From positions 806,001 through 870,000 of the forward strand of contig NZ_CP017641.1 of the NCBI RefSeq assembly GCF_001983935.1: a stretch of DNA of 64,000 nucleotides, read 5' to 3'. This DNA is from Fuerstiella marisgermanici. GTDB taxonomy: Bacteria > Planctomycetota > Planctomycetia > Planctomycetales > Planctomycetaceae. Every line of letters begins with the position of its first letter. Positions within the stretch are counted from its first letter, which is position 1. Positions 12,800 to 20,992 of the stretch are shown here, one piece after another. The translations under genes were made by a program, and so were the position numbers. Below the pieces are notes generated by a model. The model saw only the letters and a list, made by a program, of their open reading frames with translations, was not told where the DNA came from and made no database searches.

Positions 12800-14143
12800 A
12801 TGCACCGTATAACTAAAGGGCTCGACATACCGATTACCGGTGAGCCGGATCAGGCCGTCATTGAGGGGCCGCCCATTCGGCGGGTTGCTCTGGTGGCGTC
12901 GGACTACGTCGGCATGAAGCCCACCATGCTGGTTGCCGTTGGCGATACCGTGAAGCTTGGCCAGCCAGTGTTCTCGGATAAAAAGACCGAGGGTGTGATT
13001 TATACCGCTCCTGCTGCGGGCAAAGTGCTGGAAGTGAACCGAGGTGCTCGGCGAGCCTTCCAGTCACTGGTGATCGAAGTGGATGGCGACGAAGCCGTTC
13101 AGTTTGATGCTCCCGGAGAACGCGACATCGAAGCAGTGTCCCGCGAAGCGATCACAAGCCTGCTGGCAGAAAGCGGAATGTGGCCTGTCCTGCGGACTCG
13201 CCCATTCAGCAAAGTTCCGGCTGTCGGCAGCGTTCCACATTCGATCTTTGTGCAGGCGATGGACACGAGCCCATTGGCTCCGGACGCGACTCCGATCATT
13301 CGCGAACGCGAACGTGACTTCCGCTTCGGCCTGGTCGCTCTCACTCGCTTAACAGACGGCAAGGTTTACGTTTGTCGCCGTCCTGCTGAACACCTGCCCG
13401 GTGAAGATCATGCTCAGGTGCAGGCCGAAGAGTTTGAAGGTCCTCATCCCGCTGGCTTGCCGGGGACTCATATTCATAACCTCGATCCCGTTGGTCTGAA
13501 TAAGACTGTCTGGACGATCAATTATCAGGATGTCATGGCCATCGGCCATCTGGTCGCCACAGGTCAGCTGTCTACAACTCGCGTAGTGTCCGTGGCCGGG
13601 CCGGCCGTTAAGACTCCGCAGCTAATTCGCACGCGAGTTGGTGCAAGTGTGTCAAAACTCGTGGAAGGACGCATTGCTGACGGGGAAGTGCGAGTTGTCA
13701 GCGGCAGCGTACTAAGTGGGCGCCGAGCTGAAGGGCCGTTCGACTATCTGGGGCGATACCACCTTCAGGTCTCAGCTGTGGCTGAAGGCAATGAGCGTGA
13801 ATTCCTCGGTTGGGTGTCGCCTGGGGCTGACCGGTTCTCTGTGCGGCGAGTGTTCTCGTCTGCGTTGAACTCGGCCAAGCGGTTTGCCTTCACGACTTCA
13901 ACGGGCGGAAGCAAGCGAGCAATGGTGCCGATTGGGATGTATGAGCAGGTGATGCCGCTGGACATCATTCCCACATTTCTGTTGCGGTCGCTGATCGTGG
14001 GCGATACGGAGCAGGCTCAGGCCCTTGGCTGCCTTGAGCTGGACGAAGAAGACCTGGCATTGTGTACCTTTGTGTGCCCCGGCAAATACGAATACGGCCC
14101 GATCCTGAGGGAACGGTTGACTCAGATTGAGCTTGAAGGCTGA
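12800..14143 (+). CDS. nqrA: Na+-translocating NADH:quinone reductase subunit A
   Basis: A 447-aa peripheral subunit of the Na+-pumping NADH:quinone oxidoreductase. It starts [14 protein letters not shown], the typical NqrA opening, and continues with a barrel-sandwich-like region ([21 protein letters not shown]) and the conserved core ([23 protein letters not shown]). Length is normal. It is the first gene of an intact nqrABCDEF operon with short or overlapping junctions. The 283-bp upstream spacer probably holds the promoter, but I cannot name the elements. Confidence 0.96.
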
Positions 14144-14144
14144 T

Positions 14145-15422
14145 ATGAAATTCCTGCGAGACAAGTTAGATCAGGTTGAGCCGTGGTTTCACAAAGGTGG
14201 AAAACTGGCGCGGCTGTATCCGATCTACGAAGCGATCGACACGTTTCTGTATACGCCCGGCGAAGTGACGAAAAATGCGTCACACGTGCGGGACGGCATG
14301 GACCTGAAGCGAATGATGATCTTCGTGGTCATCGCGCTGACGCCCTGCATTTTGATGGCTTGCTACAACACGGGTGCTCAAACGCACATCGTGGCCAAGG
14401 CGGCGGTCGACGCAGGTGATTCGTATTCCGACGTGATTTCCGAACTTGGCTGGCGTGCTTCCGTCGTTCGGATGTGCGGTTGGGATCCTGCTGCTGGCGG
14501 AAACCTTGTCTACAACTTCCTGCACGGTGCCTTGTATTTCATTCCTGTCTTCCTGGTGACCAACATGGTTGGCGGGGCGTGGGAAGTGCTGTTCGGCTGC
14601 ATCCGTAAGCACGATATTAACGAAGGCTTTCTGGTGACGGGGATGCTGTTCCCGCTGACGCTGCCTGCCACGATACCGCTCTGGCAAGTCGCACTGGGAA
14701 TCAGTTTCGGTGTTGTCATCGGAAAAGAAGTCTTTGGCGGAACCGGCAAGAACTTTCTAAACCCGGCTCTGACTGCTCGAGCCTTCTTGTACTTTGCCTA
14801 TCCCATTCAAATTACTGGTTCGACCGTATGGGCCGGAGCAATCGACGGAATCACTTGTCCAACGTTGCTGACAACAATGGGCAACGTGCAGGTGGCTGCC
14901 CCGGATGGTGGTTCATTTGCAGCCGTCATTAACAACGACCTCGGCGGACTCACACTGTGGCAGGCCTTTCTGGGGAACATTCCCGGTTCGATGGGCGAAA
15001 CGTCGACCCTCGCCTGCCTGCTGGGTGCGATCTTCCTGATTGTCACCGGCGTCGGATCCTGGCGAATCATGGCCGGCGTGCTGATTGGAGCCATGGGGCT
15101 GGCAACCGTGTTTCACGGAATTGAAACAACAACGAACGCGATGTATCAGGTTCCTCCTGCGTGGCACTTGTGTACGGGAGGCCTGGCGTTTGGGCTGGTG
15201 TTTATGGCGACCGATCCGGTCTCTGCCGCCATGACAAATGCTGGGCGTTGGGTGTACGGAATCCTGATTGGGATGATGACAATCACGGTGCGCGTTCTGA
15301 ACCCTGCGTTTCCGGAAGGCATTATGCTGGCGATTCTGCTGGGCAACGTATTTGCTCCTGTGATCGACTACGTGGTCGTACAAAAGAACATCAACAGGAG
15401 GCTCGCTCGCAATGAAGCCTGA
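14145..15422 (+). CDS. nqrB: Na+-translocating NADH:quinone reductase subunit B
   Basis: A 425-aa integral membrane subunit from the ATG at 14145, one base after the nqrA stop. It has about ten membrane segments. Conserved blocks include [56 protein letters not shown] and [17 protein letters not shown]. In characterised NqrB proteins an FMN is bound covalently to the Thr of a D-x-x-S-G-A-T motif. Here the equivalent segment reads DGITCPTLL: the Asp and the acceptor Thr are kept, but S-G-A is replaced by T-C-P. Whether it is still flavinylated is uncertain. The gene overlaps nqrC by 11 bases. Confidence 0.95.
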
Positions 15423-16245
15423 AACGATACGAACCTTTAAGGTTGCTGTAACTCTGTGTTTGGTCTGTTCTGTCGTGGTGTCTTCTCTGGCCGTGGGGCT
15501 GAAGGGCATTCAGGAAGAACAGAAGGAAGCCTTTCGTCAGCAGAGTATTCTGGAAGCGGCTGGACTGTGGGAAGAAGGCGGCGACCCTGGCAAGTTGTTC
15601 AAAGACAATATCAAAGCCATTGGTCTGGACCTGGAAGACCATAAGCCGGAAGGTGATGATCTTTCCGCCCCGAAGTTTGACATGGCAAAAGCTCTGCGGG
15701 ATCCAAAACTTCACGAGGAAATTCCGAAGCAGGAAGATGTCGCCGGTTTAAAGAACGTCGAAATCTACACCGTTGTCTACCGTGTCCCTAAAGAAGGCCC
15801 GATCAAGAAACTGATCCTTCCGATACGAGGCAAAGGTCTGTGGTCCACGCTGTACGGCTTTGTGGCTCTGGATGTCGAAGAAATCGAGGAAGGACCGACA
15901 CACGTTAAGGTGGCCGGACTAACCTACTACAAGCACGGTGAAACACCAGGCCTTGGTGGTGAGGTCGACAACCAGCTCTGGAAAGCCAAATGGCCAGGTA
16001 AGCTGGTATTCGATGAAAACTGGGACGTGCAGATTGAAGTCGCCAAGAATGCCACGACCGACTATCAGGTGGACGCACTATCGGGTGCGACTCTGACATC
16101 GAATGGTGTGACCAACATGCTGGAGTTCTGGCTGGGCGACAGCGGTTTCGGGCCATACCTGCAGAAGCTTGCAAAAAAAGACGCAGCCACCCAGAAAGAC
16201 GCAGCGACTCAGGAGGCGGCCGCACGACGGGCCGTCATCCAATAA
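15412..16245 (+). CDS. nqrC: Na+-translocating NADH:quinone reductase subunit C
   Basis: A 277-aa subunit with one N-terminal membrane helix (about residues 9-28) and a periplasmic FMN-binding domain. The canonical flavinylation motif is intact ([14 protein letters not shown]), so ApbE would attach FMN to that Thr. The conserved stretch [15 protein letters not shown] is also present. The last 23 residues carry a short repeat (KKDAATQ, QKDAATQ) that is probably disordered and not part of the family core. A good Shine-Dalgarno (AGGAGG, 15396-15401) lies inside nqrB, 10 bases before the start. Confidence 0.96.
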
Positions 16246-16257
16246 GGAAACGCAACT

Positions 16258-16884
16258 ATGGCTGAACCAAACCCCAAAAAGATCCTGCTGGATCCGCTGG
16301 TCAACAACAATCCCATTGCCTTGCAAATTCTGGGTTTGTGTAGTGCCCTTGCGGTCACAGTAAAGCTGGAAACATCGCTGGTGATGGCCATCGCTGTGAC
16401 TCTGGTCACGGGGTGTTCCAGTGCGGCGATTTCGTTTATTCGCCGAGAGATCCCGAGTAGCATCCGCATCATTGCTCAGATGACCATTATCGCTTCAATG
16501 GTGATTATGGTCGATCAGATCCTGCAGGCCTTTACCCCCGGCCTCAGTCGGCAGCTTTCTGTTTTCGTGGGCCTGATTATCACGAACTGCATTGTGATGG
16601 GGCGAGCAGAAGCATTCGCAATGAAGAATGGCCCGTGGCTGAGCTTCCTGGACGGCATTGGCAACGGCCTGGGTTATGGTTTTATTCTGCTGCTGGTTGG
16701 CTTTTTCAGAGAGCTGTTTGGTTCTGGGAAGTTATTCGGCGTCAACGTGATGGTGCCACAGACAGAAGGTGGCTGGTATCCGACCAACGGACTGATGCTG
16801 ATCGCACCAAGTGCATTCTTTCTCATTGGCCTGATTATCTGGGTGATTCGCACGTTCAAGCCAGAACAGGTGGAGGCTGAATAA
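16258..16884 (+). CDS. nqrD: Na+-translocating NADH:quinone reductase subunit D
   Basis: A 208-aa membrane protein with about six helices, of the NqrD/RnfE family. It begins with [20 protein letters not shown]. The two cysteines expected to bind the intramembrane Fe-S cluster with NqrE are present (GLCSALAV and [14 protein letters not shown]). It follows nqrC by 12 bases, and its stop codon overlaps the nqrE start by one base, so the two are probably translationally coupled. Confidence 0.96.
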
Positions 16885-17498
16885 TGGAAGAATACGTCAA
16901 TATCTTCATCGACGCTGTGTTTCCGGGAAACCTCGCATTGGCCCTGTTTCTGGGCATGTGTACGTTTCTCGCGATTTCCAAGAACGTCAAGACGGCCTGG
17001 GGCCTTGGCATCGCTGTCATTGTTATTCAGACGATCACAGTGCCGGTCAATAACCTCATCTACCAGTACCTGCTGCAGCCCGGTGGCCTTAGCTGGATCA
17101 GTAGTGACCTTGCCGACCAGGATCTCACATTCGTTGGCCTGATCTGCTACATCGGCGTGATTGCGGCGATGGTTCAGATTCTGGAAATGACACTCGATAA
17201 ATACTTCCCAGCGTTGTTTAACACACTGGGAATCTTTCTGCCGCTGATCACCGTGAACTGTGCGATCCTCGGCGGCACACTGCTCATGGTGGAAAAACAG
17301 CTGGATTTCACTGGCAGCGTCGTTTACGGATTCAGTTCCGGCTTTGGCTGGGCATTGGCAATTGTGTGTCTCGCCGGAATTCGCGAAAAGATGAAGTACA
17401 GCGATGTTCCGGCCGGTCTGCGAGGACTGGGCATCACGTTCATCACCGTCGGTCTGATGGCACTGGCCTTTCAGACATTCTCTGTGATCAAGTTCTGA
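16884..17498 (+). CDS. nqrE: Na+-translocating NADH:quinone reductase subunit E
   Basis: A 204-aa membrane protein with about six helices, homologous to NqrD but of inverted topology. It opens [20 protein letters not shown]. The Fe-S cysteines are present ([14 protein letters not shown] and [10 protein letters not shown]). It contributes the intramembrane cluster and probably part of the Na+ path. It starts within the TAATG junction at the end of nqrD. Confidence 0.96.
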
Positions 17499-17505
17499 GA
17501 AACCA

Positions 17506-18726
<1,221 letters not shown>

Positions 18727-18752: not shown

Positions 18753-19454
18753 ATGATTACTGAACTGCGATCTGCCTGGCCTGAACAACCGGGCGATTGG
18801 CTGTCGTCGGCCGAACTGCAGCGGCTTAAACAGCTGTCACACGCTGGTCGTCGCACCCAGTGGCTGGCCGGACGTTGGCTAAGTCGCCGATTGATCGGCA
18901 ACGTATTGGCTGAGTCGAATGCGGAACCGGTTTCGCTGCATGAGATTGAAGTCCATTCTCACGACGACACGGGGCGTTCCAGCAGGCCTGAGATTCGGAT
19001 TCGAGACGTTCGGCAGTCATGGGACTTGTCGATCAGTCATACCGATCGGTGGGCGGCAGCCGCCCTTTCGACCGCAACTGGGTCTCGTGTTGGCATTGAT
19101 GTTGTCGAGTCGCAATCGGCCCGGTCAAGTGGCTTAAGTTTCTGGCTGACACCCGGCGAACAGGAATTGTTGGCCACATCGGCCAACACGAATGACGTGC
19201 CAACGGTGACAGTGCCTCTGCTGTGGAGCATCAAAGAGGCCACCTACAAAGCCGTCAACGGTGGCGAACCTTTCTCCCCCGCGATGTGGGATGTCTGTTA
19301 TTCTGACGATGGCCTGTTTCATTGTCGAAACGTCGACGACCCGGCTGCATCGCCTTCGATCACGATCATGCACCAGCAGGATGCAGTTGTCTCACTAGCG
19401 GTTGTTTCAGACTCAGAAGCTCAAGCCCCGAATACAGCAGCATCAGCTATGTAA
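18753..19454 (+). CDS. 4'-phosphopantetheinyl transferase, Sfp type
   Basis: A 233-aa protein that would transfer phosphopantetheine from CoA to a carrier protein. The Mg2+-binding core is visible as RVGIDVVE and, about 65 residues later, LLWSIKEATYKAVNGGEPF, which matches the WxxKEA(x)xK signature. It starts 26 bases after nqrF on the same strand, between nqrF and the flavin transferase gene. Nothing in Na+-NQR is known to need phosphopantetheine, and no carrier protein is encoded nearby, so the linkage may be incidental. Confidence 0.85.
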   Translation: MITELRSAWPEQPGDWLSSAELQRLKQLSHAGRRTQWLAGRWLSRRLIGNVLAESNAEPVSLHEIEVHSHDDTGRSSRPEIRIRDVRQSWDLSISHTDRWAAAALSTATGSRVGIDVVESQSARSSGLSFWLTPGEQELLATSANTNDVPTVTVPLLWSIKEATYKAVNGGEPFSPAMWDVCYSDDGLFHCRNVDDPAASPSITIMHQQDAVVSLAVVSDSEAQAPNTAASAM

Positions 19455-19693: not shown

Positions 19694-20992
19694 ATGGGTT
19701 TTCGTTTTTTCTATTCTGCACGACGTGACTTCATGCGAACTGCGTTTCTGGTACTTCTAATCGTCCCCAATCTGGCGTTGGCGGAAACTGCTGCGACGGA
19801 ACCGTTAAAACTGTCGGGGGATACGATGGGGACGTACTACTCCATCGTCGTCGACACTCCAGCCGAATCGCTAAACGAAGGCGGGGCATTGCAGGAGAAG
19901 GTGGAAGCTCGCCTGACTGAAATCAACCGCCAAATGTCGACGTGGGATCCGGAATCCGAGATCTCAAAATTCAACCAAAGTGCATCGACCGACTGGTTCG
20001 AAGTGTCGGCCGAATTCGCCCGAGTTGTGGAAGAAGCTCAGCGAATCCACAAACTCAGCAAAGGTGCCTTCGATCCCACCGTCGCGCCGCTAATCGATTT
20101 ATGGGGGTTTGGAGCTCGTCAGCCGAAGAAGACTCCAGGTGAATCAGAAATCGAAATGGCGAAGAAGAAGACCGGGATGCAGCACATCAGCGTTCGTCGC
20201 CAGCCGCCCGCGATCCGCAAAGCGATTCCCGAACTTCAGCTAAACCTGTCCGCAATCGCCAAAGGCTATGGCGTTGATGCGATTGCTGAACTGTTGATCG
20301 CCGAAGGGCAGCAGTCGTTCGTGGTGGACATCGGTGGTGAAGACCGAGCGGGAATCGCCAAAGCGTCTGGTGATCCGTGGAAAATGGGGGTCGAGTCGCC
20401 GGTAGGCGGACTGCAGCGAGTGGTTCCGCTGACGGAAATGTCCATCGCCACGTCCGGGGACTATCGCAATAACTTTACGCTGGATGGTGTGGTGTATTCT
20501 CATGCCATCGATCCGTCCACTGGATGGCCTGTCAGGAATCCTCCTGCGTCAGTGTCTGTCCTACACGAATCGTGCATGACGGCCGATGCGTGGGCAACGA
20601 CGATGATGATTTTGGGCACAGAGAAGGGGCTGGCACTGGCAAACGCGGAAAACCTGTCAGTGCTGTTTCAGAATGTCACGGACGGCGCAGTGACTGAATC
20701 TGCGACGGGCACGTTGAAGGCCCCCGAAGACCAGAAAGATGCCTCACTGCCTTGGTTTCCATTTGCGGCAGCGGCCGTCGTCTTTCTGATCGCCGTCACC
20801 GGAATGGCGATCGGCACGATCCTGCAGAACAAGTCGATCAAAGGTAGTTGCGGTGGGCTGGCATCAATGCCTGGCACGGAAGGCAAGTCGATCTGCGAAC
20901 TGTGTACGATCCCGAAAGACGAATGCACCAACGCGGAACTTCGAGAAAAAATGCAACAAGCGGCGGCCGAACGATCTGAATGTGAAGTTTAG
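19694..20992 (+). CDS. apbE: FAD:protein FMN transferase (ApbE) fused to an NqrM-like maturation domain
   Basis: A 432-aa protein; an internal ATG at 19733 would put a signal peptide (MRTAFLVLLIVPNLALAETA) at the extreme N-terminus. Residues about 38-335 are ApbE, which attaches FMN from FAD to Thr in NqrB/NqrC. It shows DTMGTYYSIVVD, IAKGYGVDAIAE, VVDIGGEDRAG and HAIDPSTGWPV. Residues 352-432 form a second module: one membrane helix, then KSIKGSCGGLASM and three further cysteines (C401, C404, C411). This matches the NqrM/DUF539 family, normally a separate small protein needed for Fe-S assembly in NQR. No separate nqrM is seen here. The gene lies 239 bp after the transferase gene. Confidence 0.9.
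   Translation: MGFRFFYSARRDFMRTAFLVLLIVPNLALAETAATEPLKLSGDTMGTYYSIVVDTPAESLNEGGALQEKVEARLTEINRQMSTWDPESEISKFNQSASTDWFEVSAEFARVVEEAQRIHKLSKGAFDPTVAPLIDLWGFGARQPKKTPGESEIEMAKKKTGMQHISVRRQPPAIRKAIPELQLNLSAIAKGYGVDAIAELLIAEGQQSFVVDIGGEDRAGIAKASGDPWKMGVESPVGGLQRVVPLTEMSIATSGDYRNNFTLDGVVYSHAIDPSTGWPVRNPPASVSVLHESCMTADAWATTMMILGTEKGLALANAENLSVLFQNVTDGAVTESATGTLKAPEDQKDASLPWFPFAAAAVVFLIAVTGMAIGTILQNKSIKGSCGGLASMPGTEGKSICELCTIPKDECTNAELREKMQQAAAERSECEV

Follow-up and report, generated by a model that had tools for sequence, protein, structure and literature searches.

An apbE–nqrM fusion gene downstream of nqrABCDEF in a planctomycete encodes a putative single-span, two-headed maturation factor for Na+-NQR

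NqrM (DUF539, PF04400), described from Vibrio and others, is a separate small protein with one helix, a KGSCGG motif and four cysteines that occurs together with NQR. The fusion described here bears on how it helps to build the membrane iron-sulfur centre, including the face of the membrane from which it works. The protein was reportedly named by Kostyrko et al. in 2016. In the accessible text of PMC12174285, PMC6209661 and PMC12052999, ApbE is described as the enzyme that links FMN to NqrB and NqrC, with NqrM apparently needed for the membrane iron-sulfur centre. As far as the accessible text of PMC12052999 describes it, the trypanosomatid ApbE-fumarate reductase likewise holds ApbE as a domain within a longer polypeptide; however, that fusion joins ApbE to its substrate, whereas the planctomycete fusion reported here joins it to a second maturation factor. 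The accessible text of the same ApbE review uses "fused" twice, both times for the fumarate reductase, and "fused" and "fusion" are absent from a flavinylation survey (PMC8238504). No mention of an apbE–nqrM fusion was found in searches of open PMC papers, in part by title and abstract; a prior mention may stand in the paper of Kostyrko et al. or in Agarwal et al. 2020, both outside that scope.

The window is a stretch of 64,000 nucleotides of the Fuerstiella marisgermanici genome. The features relevant here are as follows.

12800–14143, plus strand: nqrA (NCBIfam PRK05352.1-2, 695 bits, cut-off 505)
14127–15422, plus strand: nqrB, with the flavinylation-site region DGITCPTLL (NCBIfam PRK05349.1, 569 bits, cut-off 414)
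15412–16245, plus strand: nqrC, with an SGATLTS flavinylation-type motif (NCBIfam PRK05346.1-5, 281.8 bits, cut-off 255)
16258–16884, plus strand: nqrD, C28 and C111 conserved in the three relatives compared (NCBIfam PRK09292.1, over its cut-off)
16884–17498, plus strand: nqrE, C26 and C126 conserved in the three relatives compared (TIGR01940, over its cut-off)
17506–18726, plus strand: nqrF (TIGR01941, 646 bits)
18753–19454, plus strand: 4'-phosphopantetheinyl transferase-like ORF of 233 residues (Pfam ACPS PF01648, 46 bits, cut-off 25; TIGR00556 below its cut-off)
19694–20992, plus strand: apbE–nqrM fusion gene, entire ORF (translation probably starts at 19733, judged by eye from relatives)
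19733–19783, plus strand: predicted signal peptide, residues 14–30, ending in ALA before E, no lipobox cysteine (by eye; lipobox rule negative, row L039)
19826–20668, plus strand: ApbE FMN-transferase domain, residues 45–325, with catalytic-type H270, D298 and T302 (Pfam, 6nxi/6nxj alignment, AlphaFold/Foldseek, invariant columns)
20669–20752, plus strand: variable linker, residues 326–353 (residues 326–352 are 16–39% identical to genus relatives)
20753–20827, plus strand: transmembrane helix, residues 354–378 (hydropathy peak 2.38 at 359–377; confident model helix)
20828–20965, plus strand: NqrM cysteine domain, residues 379–424, KGSCGGL with C386, C401, C404 and C411 (Pfam PF04400 at 376–424; alignments)

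The fusion is encoded by an uninterrupted frame of 432 residues. The ApbE profile PF02424 matched residues 45–325 over its full length (positions 1–266 of 266; 290 bits, E 2.2e-86; curated cut-off 25.6 bits). The NqrM profile PF04400 (curated cut-off 22 bits) matched residues 376–424 with 31 bits (E 2.2e-7) in the whole protein and with 35.3 bits (E 9.8e-9) when the last 81 residues were searched alone. A preliminary description, made from the letters of the window, had proposed a complete ApbE at about residues 38–335 followed in the same frame by a membrane helix and an NqrM signature. The full-profile match bears out the former and Pfam, hydropathy and the model helix the latter; the four cysteines lie where they had been placed, and the match of the C-terminal stretch of about 80 residues to DUF539 is significant. 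With NCBIfam, the ApbE equivalog PRK10461.1 scored 240 bits, under the cut-off of 498 set for that full-length model, and no match was obtained for the C-terminal part.

H270 aligns with H257 of Vibrio cholerae ApbE, at the column that holds glycine in the H257G structure (6nxi/6nxj alignment). Among 28 aligned fused proteins, H270, D298, T302, C386, C401, C404 and the glycines flanking these three cysteines are invariant, and C411 is conserved in at least 90%. The AlphaFold2 model of the fusion had a mean pLDDT of 86.9, with the ApbE domain and helix 354–378 confident; blocks within residues 381–410 of the cysteine domain, at pLDDT 55 to 62, are of low confidence, so that the geometry of the cysteine site cannot be read. 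Foldseek ranked 6nxi, the V. cholerae ApbE structure, first (TM to target 0.87, E 9.3e-33); together with other matches, this confirmed the ApbE fold. When the protein was set against six fused relatives from its genus (gaps counted as differences; a seventh relative, cut by a contig end, was left out), the NqrM part was the best conserved region (72–85% identity), against 59–72% for ApbE and 16–39% for the linker, which varies in both length and sequence among fused proteins. Read by eye, the second methionine (residue 14, position 19733, "MRT") is more likely the true start, since it matches the MRT of relatives L084 and L086 and gives a normal signal peptide.

The locus resembles the V. cholerae-type ApbE in its full domain, catalytic-type histidine, N terminus of putative export type, nqr neighbours and the SGATLTS motif of the local NqrC, but differs from it by lacking a lipobox and by adding a C-terminal helix and NqrM domain. 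The NqrM part in turn has the single helix, KGSCGG, four cysteines and co-occurrence with NQR of its namesake; however, it resides within the ApbE frame rather than in a separate small protein, and its cysteine spacing after GSCGG is longer than in the Vibrio-type NqrM rows compared. The gene had been placed just after nqrABCDEF: nqrA to nqrF do lie upstream, but the 233-residue phosphopantetheinyl transferase-like ORF (18753–19454) intervenes after nqrF.

Only the fusion was found when the single-contig genome (8,920,478 bases) was searched for nqrM with the Pfam model and with a planctomycete NqrM profile. A hidden second nqrM, which would have spoken against the preliminary description, was detected by neither search. 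The genome encodes two ApbE proteins, the fusion and a distant one (L131, G000 C1:7074240-7075028) with 27% identity, and no NqrM was present within the 16 kb examined around the latter at 7.07 Mb. From these sequence comparisons, we conclude that one predicted chain supplies both maturation factors.

The same planctomycete NqrM profile was used for family searches, and NqrF was counted when over its cut-off. In the source family, NqrM was found in 79 of 170 genomes and NqrF in 78, with both in 75 (tables compared by eye). The preliminary description had suggested a survey of planctomycetes for the fusion and for separate nqrM, and the fusion proved to recur. It is carried by 47 of the 79 NqrM-bearing genomes, namely 44 whose frames are complete or almost so (the window and 43 further loci that were read) and three cut by contig ends (G403, G418 and G440). 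Another 31 of the 79 are split, comprising 25 read with apbE beside nqrM, three assigned from frame lengths only (G238, G411 and G415) and three without an adjacent apbE in the stretches examined (1.4 kb in G394 and G419, 9 kb in G357). All eight searched genomes of the source genus carry the fusion, as do many other genera and the single-contig genomes G000, G291 and G519. The remaining genome, G427 (L100), is undecided: its ApbE and NqrM frames overlap without being the same, probably through a sequencing slip or a true frame shift, and the four other NqrM-bearing genomes of its genus (g275) are fused.

In a second planctomycete family, NqrM was found in 129 of 199 genomes, and the tables place ApbE and NqrM in one frame in 74 of the 129 (the listed frame lengths agree in 71 and differ in three, G274, G673 and G693; the sequence of G274 reads as fused). 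Among loci of this family checked by sequence, 20 of 20 fused calls were confirmed and 20 of 20 split loci had no NqrM in the ApbE frame. An even sample of the phylum held NqrM in 57 of 392 genomes (19 from the source family, 8 from the second family and 30 elsewhere). For those 30, none of the eight loci read was fused, and the listed frames of the other 22 (61–195 residues) are too short. Furthermore, named loci among the best 80 of at least 596 stretches comprised 10 fused, 50 split and 20 with ApbE alone; the fused ones were nine planctomycetes, at least six of them genomes already counted, and one Nitrosomonas MAG (L164), whose NqrM part has no start methionine, which argues against a mere sequencing slip. 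Presence in two planctomycete families and in this MAG rejects a single-lineage oddity. Domain databases presumably show the ApbE and NqrM pairing implicitly.

On ApbE-domain trees, 14 changes between fused and split states were counted with 99 rows, and 15 and 13 changes with 137 rows and two methods; three changes are forced by well-supported branches (five on the FastTree tree). Direction and exact count aside, these sequence-based trees support repeated fusion or splitting. In 31 of the 50 split loci from the best 80 of at least 596 stretches (within L138–L210), the nqrM frame opens directly after the apbE stop in the same frame, a biased set because the ranking favours in-frame continuations. 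Where this arrangement holds, a single stop loss would fuse both genes. The expected NqrM start stretch contains no methionine in 33 of 52 fused proteins, a count that speaks against a retained, usable internal NqrM start (only methionine was considered).

The N terminus of the fusion reaches a hydropathy of 1.4 to 1.8 in 19-residue spans starting at residues 12–18, and the signal peptide predicted by eye has an SPase-I-type end (ALA before E) after its hydrophobic stretch. For signal peptides and lipoboxes alike, the calls come from a simple rule and visual inspection rather than from a trained predictor, and by this rule the fusion has no lipobox for a lipoprotein anchor. Across all 171 rows, in which duplicates and non-NQR ApbEs are included, the plain rule detected a lipobox in 91 of 113 untruncated split proteins versus 5 of 53 fused ones. 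The tree rows are a subset that we chose from the 171, made up of the own-family rows and a varied selection of others. Among the combined 137 rows, a lipobox is present in 60 of the 69 split ApbEs, compared to 5 of 65 scored fused proteins (60 without); seven of the split ones owe this call to inspection by eye, and three further fused rows, two of them rule-positive, received no score. By the rule alone, the counts are 53 of 69 and 7 of 68. In the nine split ApbEs without a lipobox, a hydrophobic segment seen by eye at the N terminus may provide anchorage; in L154 it could be cleavable.

A Fisher test of lipobox against fused or split state, uncorrected for kinship, gave a P value of 3e-22. 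In a purpose-written Pagel-type test (chi-square approximation, midpoint root), the likelihood ratios for the 137 rows were 54.2 with the IQ-TREE tree (P = 5e-11) and 46.9 with the FastTree one (P = 2e-9); with the rule-alone calls, the values were 45.9 (P = 3e-9) and 37.5 (P = 1e-7), respectively. The first 99 rows gave 42.9 (P = 1e-8), and a partial replicate, the 38 second-family rows that completed the set, showed a lipobox in 1 of 18 scored fused and 15 of 19 split proteins. A strict pair test on well-supported branches had three usable pairs only and no power (P = 0.5); averaged over random pairings, 0 pairs went the same way, 1.8 went the opposite way, as expected, and 1.2 showed no difference. 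Altogether, correlated evolution of fusion state and lipobox is supported on both trees as judged from these sequences, and the lipid anchor of ApbE has probably been replaced by the NqrM helix in the fused form. A protein helix that seemingly took over from a lipid anchor makes a clear pattern of evolution. The fitted rates of the two trees differ on the order of lipobox loss and fusion. At least five fused proteins retain a lipobox; they include a fused clade of genus g306 (L059, L075 and L076), in which L075 and L076 also still have a methionine where NqrM is joined on, a trait to be expected of a recent fusion.

The charges around the helix bear on orientation. In the 52 fused proteins, the mean number of lysines and arginines is 0.81 over the 14 residues preceding the helix and 2.23 over the 8 that follow, and acidic residues average 1.46 before and 0.04 after. 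K/R after exceeds K/R before in 42 of the 52 proteins and equals it in 8. Stand-alone NqrM (38 proteins) has 0.08 K/R before the helix and 2.24 after, where the stretch before was counted from the nearest upstream methionine and is short by construction; two rows had none. From this charge bias, we predict that NqrM, stand-alone and fused alike, is N-out/C-in, which would put ApbE in the periplasm and the cysteine domain in the cytosol. The preliminary description had seen a topology puzzle in a helix that would hold ApbE on the periplasmic side; with more positive charges after the helix than before it in 42 of 52 fused proteins, no conflict arises. Moreover, an exported ApbE would require N-out/C-in, so the fusion may serve as independent evidence for the orientation of NqrM generally.

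These data make it likely that the protein is a single-span, two-headed Na+-NQR maturation factor in which the NqrM helix takes the place of a lipid anchor, its activities and compartments being read from homology and charge. The signal peptide would export the ApbE domain, which would transfer FMN from FAD to periplasmic threonines of NqrC and NqrB. The NqrM helix would span the membrane N-out/C-in and substitute for the lipid anchor usual in separate ApbE, and the four-cysteine domain in the cytosol would help to assemble the iron-sulfur centre between NqrD and NqrE. We infer that both activities are retained and that coupling them may bring a gain; coordinated maturation at the membrane, as first suggested for this locus, is a reasonable inference. 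More tentatively, and with some doubt on our part, the chain might act as a trans-membrane platform that docks once on nascent NqrDE/NqrBC, serving the iron-sulfur site on the cytosolic side and flavinylation on the periplasmic side and so tying flavinylation to insertion of the iron centre. If so, NqrM would everywhere be N-out/C-in and act from the cytosolic face.

A benefit from coupling is denied by a neutral account, in which occasional stop-codon loss joins neighbours whose halves then act as if separate. This account is compatible with the same anatomy, and we regard it as a substantial, though minority, possibility. It fits the 31 of 50 split loci (best 80 of at least 596, a biased set) in which the apbE stop codon is followed at once by the nqrM frame, the alternation of fused and split states on the tree (13 to 15 changes, 3 to 5 of them forced) and the variation of the linkers in length and sequence. 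However, 33 of 52 fused proteins have no methionine where NqrM would be expected to start, which speaks against it, and the scarcity of lipoboxes among fused proteins points to an altered anchoring of the ApbE half and thus to consequences of the join. That same replacement of an anchor could also mean that the NqrM part is now a mere C-terminal anchor for ApbE, its iron-sulfur role lost. This is very unlikely, because 28 fused proteins share C386, C401, C404 and the glycines flanking them without exception, the NqrM part is the best conserved portion in the genus, and the genome has NQR with conserved NqrD and NqrE cysteines and no other NqrM that we could find.

The variable linker of about 28 residues would also suit a cut after synthesis that frees an ApbE, soluble or loosely bound, from an NqrM of ordinary small size. 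We consider such processing unlikely, since it would leave the fused ApbE without an anchor, unlike the mostly lipobox-bearing separate ApbEs, and no conserved cleavage motif was seen by eye in the linker columns of the fused alignment. An assembly artefact or pseudogene could point to one source-family MAG with overlapping frames (G427, L100), but its probability is negligible and we reject it: single-contig G000, G291 and G519, all eight genus genomes and many genera carry the fusion, the fusion recurs, and its parts are under constraint. The preferred reading remains the two-headed factor. Because its natural partner in the fusion is a periplasmic enzyme, NqrM would have one orientation rather than the other, and two maturation steps are linked in one protein; fused and split forms in related genomes offer ready-made pairs for asking whether coupling matters.

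NqrM and NqrF did not coincide everywhere in the source family. Four genomes have NqrM without NqrF over cut-off (G403, G439, G443 and G490), and three have NqrF without NqrM (G024, G525 and G526); in the latter, all candidates were scored and NqrM was not found, the best E value being 0.04 and three weak places being unlike NqrM. G024 (L130, single contig), G525 and G526 belong to one genus (g2), whose sister species G137, G194 and G524 carry the fusion. In G024, the one of the three checked, the NqrD and NqrE cysteines are conserved though NqrM is undetected. NqrM is either replaced or dispensable in these three genomes, and it may not be indispensable everywhere.

The region around NqrB residues 243–246 (14853–14864) reads DGITCPTLL here, DGYTAPTSL in G291 and DGYSGATSL in G024, with the threonine kept; we take the local form to be a variant of the usual SGAT flavinylation motif. 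An obligatory position of the fusion beside the operon is rejected by single-contig G291, in which the two lie about 3.1 Mb apart (C1:3125767-3126978 and C1:6258976-6260139); they are likewise distant in G194 and G137. The fusion can therefore travel as one unit. In G357, a stand-alone nqrM lies far from nqrF and from the apbE next to nqrF.
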